From NCBI GenBank assembly GCA_036245525.1, contig BTPG01000005.1:115115880-115179879 (forward strand): a stretch of DNA of 64,000 nt, written 5' to 3'. Below are positions 2,951-10,365 of this stretch, in pieces. The stretch comes from Semisulcospira habei (Eukaryota; Mollusca; Gastropoda; Semisulcospiridae). The notes beneath the pieces are model-generated. The model saw only the letters and a program-made list of their open reading frames with translations. It ran no database searches and had not been told where the DNA came from. A program made the translations under genes and the position numbers. Positions within the stretch are counted from its first letter, which is position 1. The number at the start of each line of letters is the position of its first letter.

Positions 2951-3562
2951 TTAATTTACTAACCCATACCCTGTGGGCTGATCTGTCTTTAAAATGAGCT
3001 TTAGATGCTTAGTTGATTTCAGTTTATTTTTTACATCATCACGTTCATGCTTATTTGGTATGACATCATTCTCTCTGAGACAGTCTTCAAAGCTGTCACG
3101 GTCCTTACAGTAAAACAAACAAATAAACTTTAACTGTTCTCGAAAATCTTTCAGTACAGCATTATATTTCTGAGTGAGAATCCATACACTTACATTTGCG
3201 TGTCTGCCACTGAAAGCAAGTTCTGCTAGAGTGTTTCTCTTCTTGACAATGTCTTTCTCTGCTGAGCAGTCATCAACAATAAACAATGTTGGCTGTCCTT
3301 CAAATTGCTTGTAAAAATATTGTAGGTAGTCATTCAGTTTTTTCTCAGGGTCGACTAAGTATATGTTGCTGTCAGTCCAAATGAATAAACGGTTGTGATA
3401 AGCTTTGTTGTGTTTAATAGTAGGACAAAATATTACAATGTTTTCAAAATGGTGGATGTATCTTGTTTGTAAGAGGTTAAGTACAAATTCAGTTTTACCA
3501 CACCCTGTGGCACCACAAAACAATCCACAGTGTGGGTCAAGGGTCATTAAGCTCCGGTTCAT
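2951..3562 (-). CDS. A32/FtsK-HerA-type genome-packaging ATPase
   Basis: This ATPase would drive DNA into the preformed capsid. From the ATG at 3562 it has 203 residues. It shows a Walker A P-loop GATGCGKT (residues 17-24), a hydrophobic strand ending in Walker B LFIVDD (93-98) and a downstream WILTQKYN strand carrying the polar sensor Gln typical of A32-like ATPases. The length of about 200 residues fits the minimal Polinton, virophage and adintovirus packaging ATPases. An ATG 36 nt upstream (3598) would overlap the capsid gene; I chose 3562 because it directly follows TATTAAA and leaves a normal 19-nt gap. It is downstream of the major capsid gene, the usual morphogenesis-block order. Confidence 0.94.
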   Translation of the reverse strand: MNRSLMTLDPHCGLFCGATGCGKTEFVLNLLQTRYIHHFENIVIFCPTIKHNKAYHNRLFIWTDSNIYLVDPEKKLNDYLQYFYKQFEGQPTLFIVDDCSAEKDIVKKRNTLAELAFSGRHANVSVWILTQKYNAVLKDFREQLKFICLFYCKDRDSFEDCLRENDVIPNKHERDDVKNKLKSTKHLKLILKTDQPTGYGLVN

Positions 3563-4908: not shown

Positions 4909-6168
4909 ATGGCAGCGGGAGGATTTAATCATGAAGATTTTGAAATGGATGACACGTATGATTTTGGTAATACAACAGATATGACAGATATGACAGATAT
5001 GACTGGTACAAGAAATATTTACAGTTTACGTCATGAACTTTTAGAAACCAAAGTGAACTCATTTTATGATCATGTTGGTGGCCGCCCAGACAACGTAGAC
5101 CCTAATCAGTTTGAACTTGATGGCAAGGGTCATTTATATTTAAATACTGTTGACAAAGGAAAAGTACTATTGACTAACAAAAAAGACCCTAGTAGGTTTA
5201 GGGCTTTAAGTACAATAAAAAATGAAGGTGGTGTTGGTGCCTTGCGTCAACTTGGAATTGGTGGGTCTCCTGTCACGCCAAGACTGGCTAGTGCGCTTCA
5301 TGACACACAAACAAAGTTGCCAACAGGGCAAGAGATTGAAATGGCACCAGTAACAAGCCTACCAGAAATAGCAAACACAGTGATACAAGAAACTTCATTT
5401 ACTGAAGGGCAATTAAATGACGCTATGAAAACAATAGACGACCCACCTTTGTCAATGAGGGAGATTATGGGATTGGATAAATCACTGCAGACAATAAGAG
5501 GTGAGATGGTTAATAATCTTGCCAAACTGGGAGAGCTTGATAAACACATAGAACGTGAAAAAGAGAAACTGGCTACCGCAGACAATGGAAATCTTGACAC
5601 AGAAATAAAAGAAAGAATACAGCACAGATTAAATGATTTGCAGATAGAAAGATCTGGACGGTTAGAAACAATTAGTATTGGAAGACAAAAACTTAAAACC
5701 CAAGTTAACAGAATTAGAGAAACTATTCAGAAAATACTTCACGAAGACACTACTCTGGCTGAGAGACTAAAAACACTTTTCAGAGAACAGGGTATTACAA
5801 TTGCTAGTTTAATTACTGCTCTGGGATTTATTATCAGTACTTTTGTGTTGGCTGTCTCCGGTGCTGGTGGACCCGGTGGTTCAACACCGCCAGCCCCGGC
5901 ACCACCAACCCCGGGTCCCCCACCACCAACTGACCCAAAAGATTTACAGTCATGGGTAAAAAAACAACTGTCTCACATATCAGACTTGCTAAAAAAATTG
6001 GCTCTGAAAGCAGTGGACGCGTTGCCTGGCATTATAGGCTCTGTTGTCAGCTGGTTGATTAGTACAGCGGCAAAGGTAGTTGGGTTTATGGCAGAGCATG
6101 TGTGGGTCTTTTTGGTTACAGTAGGAGGGTTGATGGTGGGTTATTTAATGAAACAGATAAAGAAGTAA
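4909..6168 (+). CDS. Large Polinton membrane protein, coiled coil plus two TM regions
   Basis: A 419-residue protein of a family common in invertebrate Polintons, role unknown. From N to C it has an acidic start with four MTD-type repeats (DMTDMTDMT, about residues 24-33), a globular part (about 35-110), and a long charged coiled coil (about 187-283). A hydrophobic helix follows (about 295-320, ASLITALGFIISTFVLAV), then a Gly/Pro-rich hinge (about 320-344), and a second helix-rich hydrophobic part (about 366-415) containing ALPGIIGSVVSWLISTAAKVV and a terminal membrane span. The hairpin-plus-coil layout resembles virion membrane or membrane-lysis proteins, but this is inference. Its 3' end overlaps the convergent gene at 6145 by 24 nt. 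The ATG follows AATAAAACA. Confidence 0.85.
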   Translation: MAAGGFNHEDFEMDDTYDFGNTTDMTDMTDMTGTRNIYSLRHELLETKVNSFYDHVGGRPDNVDPNQFELDGKGHLYLNTVDKGKVLLTNKKDPSRFRALSTIKNEGGVGALRQLGIGGSPVTPRLASALHDTQTKLPTGQEIEMAPVTSLPEIANTVIQETSFTEGQLNDAMKTIDDPPLSMREIMGLDKSLQTIRGEMVNNLAKLGELDKHIEREKEKLATADNGNLDTEIKERIQHRLNDLQIERSGRLETISIGRQKLKTQVNRIRETIQKILHEDTTLAERLKTLFREQGITIASLITALGFIISTFVLAVSGAGGPGGSTPPAPAPPTPGPPPPTDPKDLQSWVKKQLSHISDLLKKLALKAVDALPGIIGSVVSWLISTAAKVVGFMAEHVWVFLVTVGGLMVGYLMKQIKK

Positions 6169-7404
6169 TACTCCTAATCCAGTGAGGCCTATTACCAATG
6201 CAGTTCTTTCCGACTCATGTGTGTCAGGGGTTGGTGTTGACTGTACTGGTTGTATGAGTGTCGGTGTTGGGGTTGGGGCCGGGGCCAGGGGTGTTACCGT
6301 CTGTAATGATTTTAATGACTGAACATGTGTGGTTGTTGCTCCTAAGTTTACAGATTGATTGAGACCGAGTTTTTGACCAACACCTGCAACAACTATTTCA
6401 TTATTATAATTTGTTATTGTACCCATTTGGAGTTGAAGGTCTGATGGCAACATGTATAACCCGATTCCAACTACAAAGTCAACTTTTGATCTGGCATATC
6501 TGAGTACGTCTTGATAGCGCTGTATGCTTGATGGGAGATCTACTGTTGAATTTACTGAATCTTCAAGATTTGCAAGAAACTGTTTTTGTGCTTCAAACTT
6601 TCCACTTCCATTCAAAATGTTTGATTTTGTTAGTGATTGTGCACCTAGTATACACCAGACATATGTTCTGATAGACTCATTGACGCGCTCGACTCCTGCT
6701 TGAGTAAACCCGTCAGATTTATCTAAAATAAATGTGGTCCATGCGTTTGACTGCTTCTGCTCTATTGATCCTATCCAGACTTGTGATTTTGATGAGAATG
6801 AAGTGTAACCAGGGTAGTAATCTTGAGGGTATTGTCTGTGACTCATAGCATAATACAATGTACCCATGCCTTTGTGATCATCAAGTTTTTGTGTGAAGTC
6901 ATACCGGGGACTGATGTTAAATTCATTACAGATGCGTTCAAACGCTTTCATATCCATGGGGTTGTTAAACCTGTTGAAACTGGATTCAGTGGGCAGTGGT
7001 GTATGAAGTTCTGACAGTATACGTCTAAGCTGGTAATAAACATGGAAACGATACACAGATCTAATCAGTTTGTTTGAGTGATTCAAGTGGTCTGTAAATG
7101 AAACACCACAGCCTGTAGTTGAACATAGTATTGCAAAGTTGAGTTGGTTTTGAAACATCTGTAGTGGGCTTGAAGACCACTTTCTTGCAGTTGAGTCATC
7201 TGTTATTGGAGGGTTTAGGTAATGGTCAAACGGATTTGGTACTTTCACTTGGAATAGGTCTTGTACGCTTGCGTCCGACACAGCTATGTCGAGTTGATTT
7301 AGTTGAATTATTTTCTGTTCATAAGTAGGTGCAACATTATATTTGGCATCCATATTAAATTGAAATGCGTTTGTTGTGGTAATGGTTGGCGATTTAAATT
7401 CCAT
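6145..7404 (-). CDS. Conserved Polinton protein with C-terminal membrane anchor
   Basis: A 419-residue member of a family I recognise in Polintons of corals and molluscs, with no assigned function. Recognisable blocks are LNFAILCSTTGCGVSFTDHL (about residues 88-107), VYRFHVYYQLRRIL, NAWTTFILDKSDGFTQAGVE, ESIRTYVWCILGAQSLTKS and KVDFVVGIGLYMLPSDLQLQ. A Pro/Thr-rich linker (about 372-395) leads to a C-terminal hydrophobic anchor (about 401-419, LVIGLTGLGVLLLYLF). Such a tail-anchored, otherwise soluble protein could sit on the virion surface or on an internal membrane. It is convergent with the coiled-coil membrane protein (24-nt overlap) and diverges from the penton candidate across only 24 bp. 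Confidence 0.85.
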   Translation of the reverse strand: MEFKSPTITTTNAFQFNMDAKYNVAPTYEQKIIQLNQLDIAVSDASVQDLFQVKVPNPFDHYLNPPITDDSTARKWSSSPLQMFQNQLNFAILCSTTGCGVSFTDHLNHSNKLIRSVYRFHVYYQLRRILSELHTPLPTESSFNRFNNPMDMKAFERICNEFNISPRYDFTQKLDDHKGMGTLYYAMSHRQYPQDYYPGYTSFSSKSQVWIGSIEQKQSNAWTTFILDKSDGFTQAGVERVNESIRTYVWCILGAQSLTKSNILNGSGKFEAQKQFLANLEDSVNSTVDLPSSIQRYQDVLRYARSKVDFVVGIGLYMLPSDLQLQMGTITNYNNEIVVAGVGQKLGLNQSVNLGATTTHVQSLKSLQTVTPLAPAPTPTPTLIQPVQSTPTPDTHESERTALVIGLTGLGVLLLYLFH

Positions 7405-8160: not shown

Positions 8161-9036
8161 ATGAGTGGTGGTCCAAAGTCGAGAATCATACCAGTTGCAT
8201 GTCCAGTAACAGAATTGAAAGATTTGGCAGATGTACAGGATTTTGAGAAGGAGGGAGAAATTGGAGAAATATATGGTTTTGAACTTGATTCCTATGGCAT
8301 GTACAAGAGGAAAGTAATTGTTGACATGAAAGATGGTGAAAAACAGATTCCTAAACTTGGTCAGCTACGTGATGTTACTGTACCTACTCCACCTGTAAAT
8401 AATTCGCCCTACAACTTAATACATGTGGGAAATAAGTGGGTGGTTTCACCTGTACCTGTTCCACCACCCACAATTGACTGGGACATAAAGTTGGAATTTA
8501 TTAGTCCTTATGTATACACTGATGACGAAGGTGCCTTAGTGTTTAGGAAGGTTGTTAACTCGGGGCCGCTTATTGTAAGTCTTGTTCCAAGCTTTGCCCC
8601 AGACAACAATAGCAGAGAAAAACTGAAAGTTGAAAATTATGAGAAACGGAGATATCTTCTTACAACTAGAAAGGGTAGATCAGATACTTCTGTTGTGTTT
8701 ATGCCAGCAAGCTTAGTCATGGCTAGAGAAGTGACAATAGTATTTGAAATTATCATGAAATCTGTTGCTACTGCTAAAGAGGCTCAAATTGCACAAGGAA
8801 TTAAACTTACATGGGATGAAACAGTAACAGAATCATCAAAGGTCTTTATTGCTATTACAAAAAATAATGATGTTATTAATGTTTCGAGCAGTGTTCCAGC
8901 TGTCAAGGTGGTGGTTGACAAAACAACTTTTGTTCGTCTAACTTACATAAACCTTGAACACATTGATCTTGTTGCATTTTATTATGCCAGCAAATTGTAT
9001 ACTTTTGAAGAGTTGCAAAATGTAATTGCTGATTAA
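8161..9036 (+). CDS. Polinton protein of unknown function, beta-rich
   Basis: A 291-residue protein I do not recognise with confidence. It has no signal peptide and no membrane span. The first half contains a Pro/Val-rich linker (about 75-103: VPTPPVNNSP, then PVPVPPPTIDWDIKLEF). After that come alternating hydrophobic and charged strands, including KVENYEKRRYLLTTRKG, SLVMAREVTIVFEIIM and a C-terminal LVAFYYASKLYTFEELQNV. The Pro-rich spacer joining two beta-rich parts would suit a fibre, vertex-associated or cement protein. It stands 21 nt after the penton candidate and shares its direction and A-rich ATG context (TTATAAAAA), suggesting related expression. The function is unknown. Confidence 0.7.
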   Translation: MSGGPKSRIIPVACPVTELKDLADVQDFEKEGEIGEIYGFELDSYGMYKRKVIVDMKDGEKQIPKLGQLRDVTVPTPPVNNSPYNLIHVGNKWVVSPVPVPPPTIDWDIKLEFISPYVYTDDEGALVFRKVVNSGPLIVSLVPSFAPDNNSREKLKVENYEKRRYLLTTRKGRSDTSVVFMPASLVMAREVTIVFEIIMKSVATAKEAQIAQGIKLTWDETVTESSKVFIAITKNNDVINVSSSVPAVKVVVDKTTFVRLTYINLEHIDLVAFYYASKLYTFEELQNVIAD

Positions 9037-9066
9037 ATAAAAAAAAATATTTGTCAATAAAAAAAA

Positions 9067-9753
9067 ATGGTAAACTTCTATCCGCAACTACCAACGCTTG
9101 ATCCGACTGAAACAAATGTGACGACTAAAACAACACTTGCGCCTGATCCACATATGCCAATTGCTTCAGATAAAACATTACAGACAGATGCATTCAGATT
9201 AATAAATATTACAGAAGCTTTGAAATATTTGGAGAGTGAGGAGGCTAAGTACTCACGGTGCAAAAGGAGGTATAAGTCAGTATTTAATTCTGTTCAAAAC
9301 ACTTCTATGGCTATTGGTGCAGTTTCAGCTTCATGTTCTGTAGGGGGTATCGTTCTGTTCGCCACAGGAATTGGGAGTTTGGCTGGAATAGCAGTTGAGG
9401 CTGTTAGCGTTGCTACATGCCTGGCTTGCTTTGGTTTGGAGGCCTTGAACAAGAGGTTTCACACAAAATTACAGAAACATGAAGCATTGAGTACGCTTGC
9501 TGGTGCAAAGCTGAGCAGTATGAAACTTATTATCAGTAAGGCATTAAACGATAATTTTATTGATGACGAAGAATTTAAGAGAGTCCAGGATGATTTAAAT
9601 AATTACAAGAAACAAAAATCTGAAATACAGAATAAGATGCGTAGTCAATCTCCCGTAAATGTTGAAGAACTGAAGGCTAGTTTTTTAGCAGAGGGAAAAA
9701 AGATAGGGGTACAGGAAACCACAGAAAAACTACACAATCTTTTAAACAAATAA
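9067..9753 (+). CDS. Conserved Polinton protein with Gly/Ala-rich hydrophobic hairpin
   Basis: A 228-residue protein of a family I know as a recurrent but uncharacterised Polinton product. The polar N-terminus is followed by a basic segment (YSRCKRRYKSVFNSV, about residues 61-75). Then come two closely spaced hydrophobic, Gly/Ala/Val-rich stretches (about 80-128, ASCSVGGIVLFATGIGSLAG), then LQKHEALSTLAGAKLSSMK and a charged coiled-coil tail (NDNFIDDEEFKRVQDDL). The hairpin would insert in a membrane or disrupt one, so a membrane-active entry or scaffold role is possible; this is inference. The ATG follows a long A run (CAATAAAAAAAA). It is 27 nt upstream of the 30-residue late-domain peptide. 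Confidence 0.8.
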   Translation: MVNFYPQLPTLDPTETNVTTKTTLAPDPHMPIASDKTLQTDAFRLINITEALKYLESEEAKYSRCKRRYKSVFNSVQNTSMAIGAVSASCSVGGIVLFATGIGSLAGIAVEAVSVATCLACFGLEALNKRFHTKLQKHEALSTLAGAKLSSMKLIISKALNDNFIDDEEFKRVQDDLNNYKKQKSEIQNKMRSQSPVNVEELKASFLAEGKKIGVQETTEKLHNLLNK

Positions 9754-9779
9754 AAATCAGATTTGGTAATCGTTTATTA

Positions 9780-9872
9780 ATGTCATACACTTCACAGAAA
9801 AATGCCATGCCACTTACAACACTTGTGCCTGATTATTTAACCCCATCTGCACCACCACCAGAGTACTACTGA
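9780..9872 (+). CDS. 30-residue peptide ending in PSAP and PPEY late-domain motifs
   Basis: A short reading frame follows the last long gene by 26 nt. It encodes 30 residues starting MSYTSQKNAMPLTTLV; the last ten residues are LTPSAPPPEYY. These contain PSAP, a TSG101/ESCRT-I-binding P(T/S)AP motif, directly followed by PPEY, a PPxY motif bound by NEDD4-family WW domains. Such paired motifs are known from budding proteins of enveloped viruses. The frame keeps the element's direction and ends just before an A/T-rich run. Against it are the small size and a start context (TTTATTAATG) weaker than its neighbours'. It could also be a 3' exon of a spliced transcript from the upstream gene. The role in ESCRT recruitment is inference. 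Confidence 0.5.
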   Translation: MSYTSQKNAMPLTTLVPDYLTPSAPPPEYY

Positions 9873-10157
9873 GAAAAAAAAGTTTTTTTATTGTCCTTGT
9901 ATCTTGTCAAATCTGACCGAGTAAGTTGTGACTTAAGTCAAGTTGTTGTAAGAACTTAGGGTAAGTACTTGTAAGAACTTAGGGTAAGTACTTGTAAGAA
10001 CTTAGGGTAAGTAAATAATAAGTTCTTATGGCAACACACTTAAAGGTTACCTCTGCAGGTTCCTAAAAGTTAGTTGCAACTTGTTAATAAGTATTAAGTT
10101 TCACTTGGCATCACTTGATCAGGTTCATGATTAGGTTTTTATAGAGACAATAGTTAT
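9873..10157. other. Polinton right flank, no gene
   Basis: No reading frame of note. It holds a T/A run after the last peptide, the 23-bp tandem array, and A/T-rich DNA in which the element's right terminal inverted repeat may lie; the boundary cannot be placed without the left end. Confidence 0.5.
9948..10016. repeat. 23-bp tandem repeat, about three copies
   Basis: The unit GTAAGAACTTAGGGTAAGTA plus CTT recurs at 9948, 9971 and 9994, the third copy drifting at its end. Position just beyond the last Polinton gene suggests subterminal repeat DNA of the element. Confidence 0.9.
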
Positions 10158-10365
10158 AGAGAAAGATAATAGGAGACCCGTAAGATAATCAGATCAATAA
10201 GGCCGCATCAGTCATACTCATCACTTTTAAAAAATCAAAGGGTTGATTCAGAATTAACGGGGGTAAAATTGGGGTCAAAATTTTGATATTAAAAATGGCG
10301 TAAATTAATGACTGATGCGGCTCTATTGAATTCATTGTCTTACGGGTCTCCTATTATCTTTCTCT
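10158..10365. repeat. Inverted repeat (palindromic MITE-like), arms of about 58 bp
   Basis: The left arm begins AGAGAAAGATAATAGGAGAC and includes GCCGCATCAGTCAT; the right arm is its reverse complement with a few mismatches, separated by about 90 bp. It could be a small foldback element inserted beside the Polinton, or part of its terminal DNA. No convincing target duplication was seen. Confidence 0.8.

Follow-up and report, generated by a model that had tools for sequence, protein, structure and literature searches.

The window, that is, the whole 64-kb stretch of DNA analysed here, contains a PSAP motif directly followed by PPEY. This motif pair is real, lies within a Polinton-type element and is under selection. 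On balance we read it as the C-terminus of a longer alternative form of a SLATT-like membrane protein, which would be produced by −1 ribosomal frameshifting and would serve membrane-dependent release. The usual model of a Polinton particle is a naked icosahedron. A membrane route for Polintons would become directly testable through a conserved membrane protein that carries ALIX-, TSG101- and NEDD4-type signals, and such signals would tie Polintons either to release of the iridovirus type or to entry of the adenovirus type. A budding signal dosed by frameshifting, if true, would be a new use of recoding; to our knowledge, the dosing of budding signals by an HIV-type −1 frameshift is known in no DNA element. 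Polinton together with late domain returned nothing in open-access full text, a coverage that leaves out most subscription papers. Polinton and ESCRT co-occur in open full text as single mentions of ESCRT, and in a further open full-text search neither Polinton nor adintovirus appears in the best 10 of 462 matches. The papers returned for Polinton together with ribosomal frameshift include a proposal for the Penton gene (PMC11071296).

The Polinton-type element

The element is about 16.3 kb long. Its description as Polinton-like in the first-pass annotation is supported by two genes on the minus strand, an rve integrase (348–1313; PF00665, E 2.1e-11, 44.4 bits against a cut-off of 32.6) and an A32-type packaging ATPase (FtsK/HerA-A32, 2951–3562; PF04665, E 8.2e-15, 55.4 bits against a cut-off of 22.8). 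Comparison with seven other copies places the right end at window position 10365, where the copies diverge, and comparison with three other copies puts the left end outside the window, 5.9 kb to its left (L009:2058). The shared ends are unusually short at 8 bp, AGAGAAAG/CTTTCTCT, and a 6-bp target duplication was read by eye in three of the four compared copies. Polintons, or Mavericks, have long terminal inverted repeats and a 6-bp target-site duplication and measure 15–20 kb. No long terminal inverted repeats were found here beyond the shared 8 bp at the sensitivity used, and for this reason we call the element Polinton-type. The right end forms an imperfect fold-back with 58-base arms (10158–10365), and a similar left end was not found.

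A large frame with the motif YTDTDS lies just left of the window. The 1036-residue part of this ORF that was examined matches no polymerase family in Pfam or PHROGs, where its matches are to endonuclease VII only, and it has no match among PDB sequences. The endonuclease VII-like stretch in the polymerase-like frame (L009:4892–7999) covers residues about 428–472. For the other ORFs of the element, among which the double-jelly-roll capsid protein and cysteine protease of Polintons would be sought, no Pfam match was obtained. Three further element proteins (1297–1731, 4909–6168 and 6145–7404) have two, two and one strongly hydrophobic segments, respectively, the last one C-terminal; such segments are not expected of a plain icosahedral particle.

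The best 40 of 2533 first-look candidates for 9700–9900 are all identical, and by its copies the element is evidently young and abundant. One copy, L001, is a mosaic with many differences from the window in 8184–9657 and none in 9658–9942. This pattern suggests an exchange between element lineages, although L001 was picked by its identity in 9700–9900, which contributes to it. In another copy, L011, the left flank near base 2502 reads like the left end of the element in reverse complement, which suggests insertion of one copy into another.

The motif pair and its reading frame

Translation bears out the 30-residue ATG frame on the plus strand (9780–9872), which ends LTPSAPPPEYY. PSAP, of the TSG101 type, is encoded at 9843–9854 and PPEY, a PPxY motif of the NEDD4 type, at 9855–9866, both with their letters checked; several relatives have PPDY in place of the latter. 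Their assignment to the late-domain type is likewise supported. A P[ST]AP/PPxY pair with the motifs at most 8 residues apart occurs once in all six frames of the 64-kb window. The mean expectation is 0.017 pairs per window in 60 first-order Markov sequences, and both motifs appear in 0.18% of 200,000 shuffles of the peptide's own 30 residues; the pattern for these Markov and shuffle tests was chosen post hoc, when the pair had already been seen.

The −1 frame around the peptide is open from 9681, with 63 residues from stop to stop, and overlaps the 3′ end of the upstream gene. That gene, which the first-pass annotation had described as a hairpin gene, is real and extends from 9067 to 9753 on the plus strand. 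The proposal of a dedicated peptide standing on its own was not supported, since the ATG is not conserved and the different families retain the −1 frame from the last part of the upstream gene onwards. The motif pair is thus probably not a stand-alone 30-residue peptide. An origin of the peptide by duplication of the hairpin tail was considered, with 17 of 18 bases common to 9130 and 9816, and rejected, since TPLVPDY or SLAPNY stands at this place in related copies.

The SLATT-like hairpin protein and its family

The ORF, an AlphaFold2 model, hydrophobicity and homologues together indicate that the upstream gene encodes a SLATT-like two-helix membrane protein of 228 residues. The model, computed with 22 sequences, has a mean pLDDT of 77 and contains helices at residues 34–100 and 103–162. 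Hydrophobic stretches are found at residues 80 and 101, in the centres of two long helices. Residues 1–33 form a disordered N-terminal tail, in which YPQL (residues 5–8, at 9079–9090 of the plus strand, letters checked) is a motif of the YPxL/ALIX type.

A six-sequence profile of the hairpin protein finds 25 proteins at E ≤ 0.01, and of 8000 scored candidates 6534 are matched by a wider family alignment. In the structural comparison, uncharacterised proteins from invertebrate iridescent viruses rank first (E 7e-8 to 3e-6, at TM-scores near 0.5 and with large rmsd). Lower in rank are SLATT-named two-helix proteins of giant viruses (E 0.02–0.4). The NCBIfam profile SLATT_1 gives weak matches in 5 of 22 family members at E ≤ 0.1, the best at 2.2e-4, and the window protein is not one of the five. 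No SLATT profile is present among the 25 listed of 34 matched Pfam families, the best PDB match by fold has an E of only 0.1, and no relatives were found among the viral contigs scanned. A link to Baculovirus E26 was not used, as a single relative, P0027, lies barely over the Pfam cut-off (25.5 against 25).

Among the 22 aligned members, 21 have YPx[LIV] in the tail and 12 have P[ST]AP there; the count covers 22 of the 26 family sequences (P0020 is without a tail; P0022, P0024 and P0025 were left out as near-duplicates). The 17 representatives at less than 70% identity have 16 and 11, respectively, against shuffle means of 0.55 and 0.10 and maxima of 5 and 3 (20,000 shuffles, relatedness ignored). 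Neither motif occurs in the protein bodies of the family. Given their frequency in the 22 tails, predicted motifs of the ALIX and TSG101 types characterise the hairpin protein family as such. Four members have the two in reverse order, and they overlap in P0012 and P0017 (PSAPPLYPSL and PSAPPIYPVL). Both are also found in 102 of 111 further listed relatives, most of which plainly form one lineage. Within the lineage of P0012 the tail MSEQNIIPSAPPLYPSL recurs in very many proteins, and P[ST]AP, PPxY and LYPxL overlap in it; 81 of the 111 listed relatives show this overlap. Tail P[ST]AP is absent from the window protein and its closest relatives P0002–P0004, and also from P0009, P0015, P0016, P0019, P0021 and P0023. 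In the branch of the window the tail retains YPQL alone.

The proposed slip site

Copies of the region were compared in 101 rows, of which four (L021, L062, L069 and L070) were not located. Two duplicates among these rows (the window equals L007, and L001 equals L045) leave 99 copies, 95 of them located. A duplicate-free set of 48 located copies (of 51) was chosen independently of the peptide and combines 27 of 30 found by hairpin DNA, 9 of 9 found via P0003 and 12 of 12 found via P0006, the last two sets having been fetched from 150 matches each. Left out of the 48 are the biased sets, 40 picked by identity in 9700–9900 and 9 by DNA that includes the peptide. The extension-bearing DNA all comes from one genome, and outside relatives are known as proteins only.

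The −1 frame has stops just upstream and opens at 9681–9687, where the gene reads AG[T TTT TTA]. The heptamer U_UUU_UUA at this position of the plus strand lies in the zero phase of the hairpin gene, reads TTTTTTAG together with the next G and is the proposed −1 slip site. It is found in phase in 95 of the 97 located rows, and in 46 of 48 within the independently picked sets. The two copies without it, L088 and L091, have broken extensions too. The preceding codon is AGT in the window's family and TCT in others, with AAT and TTT once each, and is always T-final. Since 32 of 93 comparable codons in the hairpin gene likewise never vary, conservation of the slip-site codons is mild evidence when taken alone. 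No stimulatory RNA structure was found 3′ of the heptamer in single folds without pseudoknots (z +1.2, −0.01, +0.57 and +0.85), and a consensus fold of 16 sequences has no downstream structure. Because the codon evidence is mild and no downstream structure was found, we limit our claim to a heptamer that would work like a −1 frameshift signal, perhaps at a low level, and do not class it as a two-part signal. Two other candidate slip sites, U_UUA_AAC (9741–9747) and GGGAAAA/AAAAAAG (9693–9702), were rejected since they are not conserved between families.

An inverse relation between tail motif and slip codon was seen by eye in the protein alignment. Where the tail has P[ST]AP (P0005–P0008 and P0010), Lys or Glu occupies the place at which the slip needs a T-final codon; where the tail lacks it (the window, P0002–P0004 and P0009), there is S, T or D, followed by F-L at the slip position. 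P0011 is an exception with both the tail motif and R-F-L. With 11 sequences, few and related, we take this correlation as a lead.

Conservation and selection in the extension

The −1 frame encodes an extension of 61 residues plus stop on the plus strand (9687–9872), which overlaps the hairpin gene to 9753. In 35 of the 48 copies chosen independently of the peptide, the frame runs without a stop from the slip site through P[ST]AP and PPxY, and the extension or a motif is broken in 13 of them. With the biased sets included, frames open to both motifs number 83 among 97 located rows, which between them give 31 distinct products. After removal of duplicates, the heptamer is present in 93 and both motifs are open in 81 of the 95 located copies. 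Products of other families end, for example, in SYSSQRDVTPFTPAYLMPSAPPPDYY and KYSSQRDVMPAHLMPSAPPPEYY. Conservation of frame and motifs in relatives, one of the two tests on which the first-pass annotation had staked its claim, was thus found, among relatives all in the same genome. At the site of the 9780 ATG many copies read TTG, CTG, TTA or TTT, and 6 of the 31 distinct products contain no Met.

Measured between frame-independent anchors, the hairpin stop and the extension stop stand in the same phase in every one of the 29 haplotypes from the window's family, at four distances from stop to stop (113, 119, 122 and 125 bases). In other families the phase is lost in 2 of 21 fetched copies (L101 and L103) and the hairpin end is altered in L104; some of these copies have stops, single-base losses or a lost motif. 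For the last 14 codon columns the pN/pS ratio is 0.19, compared with 0.67 for the columns preceding them, in a set from which 9 of 61 rows were excluded (3 not located and 6 with the frame broken or replaced) and which is somewhat conditioned, the anchor demanding a PP..YY-like end. That the lengths of the 52 copies in this set are all multiples of three results from anchoring them in a single frame and carries no weight as evidence. With both motifs required (14 representatives), the ratios are 0.14 and 0.58. Over the 28 of 30 copies used for this comparison, diversity at 9849–9872 falls nearly all at third positions of the −1 frame, and behind 9903 it is about 0.11. These substitution patterns indicate that the motif end is under selection at the protein level. 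In the first third of the extension, pairwise comparison within the window's family gives 670 non-synonymous and 0 synonymous differences, which arise from few events, and protein-level constraint is not clearly indicated there. A near-invariant nucleotide block of about 60 bases (9712–9771, plus strand, 28 copies) includes third positions and spans the hairpin stop; its conservation is accounted for neither by the −1 protein nor by RNA structure.

Proposed mechanism and alternative explanations

In the mechanism that we propose, ribosomes on the hairpin gene would occasionally slip back one base at U_UUU_UUA (9681–9687). The product would have 268 residues, namely hairpin residues 1–207 and a 61-residue tail rich in Arg and Lys that ends PSAPPPEYY. 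Anchored by the hairpin, the protein would have both its ends facing the cytosol. The normal form would display YPxL of the ALIX type alone, and the rare frameshifted form would add P[ST]AP of the TSG101 type and PPxY of the NEDD4 type, bringing three late-domain types onto one membrane protein. These motifs may recruit ESCRT to the membrane bearing the hairpin protein, which in turn could drive release of particles across the membrane by budding or quasi-envelopment. In this chain we infer frameshifting as the expression route, the topology, the binding of ESCRT and the egress. A wider proposal, which we put forward tentatively and consider rather doubtful, is that Polintons are ESCRT-dependent and membrane-released, either enveloped or quasi-enveloped. 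The SLATT-like protein would then act as their adaptor for budding through signals of the ALIX, TSG101 and NEDD4 types, with an HIV-type −1 frameshift setting the TSG101/NEDD4 dose in one branch.

The main rival for the route to the extension is splicing, because TTTTTTA is followed by G. The −1 stretch might be a 3′ exon with TTTTTTAG (9681–9688) as its acceptor, joined from an upstream donor to another exon, and the spliced protein would end in PSAP and PPxY. The T6 and the following AG are retained together with the heptamer, and the RNA structure that would back frameshifting was not found, both of which speak for this reading. The donor speaks against it: the first-pass annotation had raised splicing to the upstream gene, and our search of 11 representatives found no conserved GT of the right phase in the hairpin gene; in the gene preceding it, where 3 of 5 sequences could be aligned, there were only poor donors. 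We regard splicing as less likely than frameshifting, and as unlikely in itself. A further acceptor, at 9795 (TTCACAG), was rejected; it is present in the main subfamilies of the window's family, and the L070/L075 type and most other-family copies that keep the frame have CAA. Translation of a micropeptide from the ATG at 9780, or from a near-cognate codon there, is improbable. The window and many copies of its family do have the ATG, and several others have TTG or CTG at its site, but further frame-keeping copies have TTT or TTA, 6 of 31 products are without Met, the frame of both families is open from the hairpin-gene overlap on, and position −3 of the ATG is T, unlike in eight other element genes compared. 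That a functionless proline-rich stretch arose by chance is very improbable. Short motifs do arise readily and the element has other proline-rich stretches (family D3), but chance is contradicted already by the codon-position pattern, besides the 0.017 pairs expected per window, the pN/pS of 0.19 across families and the constant phase in all 29 haplotypes.

A different kind of rival concerns the task of the protein. It is compatible with frameshifting or splicing, and its likelihood is not to be added to theirs. The same protein could act in entry, by endosomal escape or trafficking, or as a SLATT-like pore, and would recruit ESCRT or NEDD4 for purposes other than egress. We consider this a serious possibility, though not the leading one; by analogy, an entry role fits the motifs as well as egress does. 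Adenovirus entry involves recruitment of Nedd4 by the PPxY of protein VI (PMC2841620), and endosomal escape has been proposed for SLATT proteins of Polinton-like viruses (PMC12220804). On the other side, YPxL, P[ST]AP and PPxY together make up a full release set, as used for example by an iridovirus (PMC4880917), and iridovirus proteins are the closest neighbours by structure. Hepatitis B virus has been reported to release naked capsids by way of Alix and a NEDD4-family ligase (PMC11389946), and by analogy this would be another alternative to budding.

Comparison with known systems

A comparison with the late (L) domains of enveloped viruses shows P[ST]AP, PPxY and YPxnL in the disordered ends of a membrane-associated protein in both cases, with the motifs conserved amid turnover of the remaining tail. 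The differences are that the present protein belongs to a Polinton, that two of its three motifs lie in a −1-frame extension and that its binding and budding functions are predicted ones. An iridovirus, tiger frog virus, reportedly employs Alix, Tsg101 and Nedd4 for release, with three different viral proteins named, whereas one protein family is involved here (PMC4880917). The hairpin protein is also linked to iridoviruses by its structural neighbours from invertebrate iridoviruses. With the SLATT proteins of Polinton-like viruses it shares the two-helix membrane architecture and a related virus group; in the available part of that source late-domain motifs are not mentioned and the role proposed is endosomal escape (PMC12220804).

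The heptamer U_UUU_UUA is the slippery sequence of HIV-1, and the −1 signal of HIV-1 likewise has it in phase with an open −1 frame (PMC12789967). Unlike retroviral −1 signals, the present one would belong to a DNA element, has no stimulatory structure that was found and would add budding-type motifs instead of enzymes. Protein VI belongs to adenovirus, a virus of the DJR lineage. It resembles the present protein in carrying PPxY on a virus protein and differs in acting in entry, with no P[ST]AP or YPxL reported in the available part of the paper (PMC2841620). The adintovirus Penton concerns another gene with cysteine-rich ends, and the text of that paper has no L-domain terms (PMC11071296). 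A hypothetical −1 frameshift has been proposed for it; as in the present case, a slip by −1 close to the 3′ end of a gene of the Polinton class would yield an alternative C-terminus. Candidate envelope glycoproteins are mentioned for some adintoviruses (PMC11071296).
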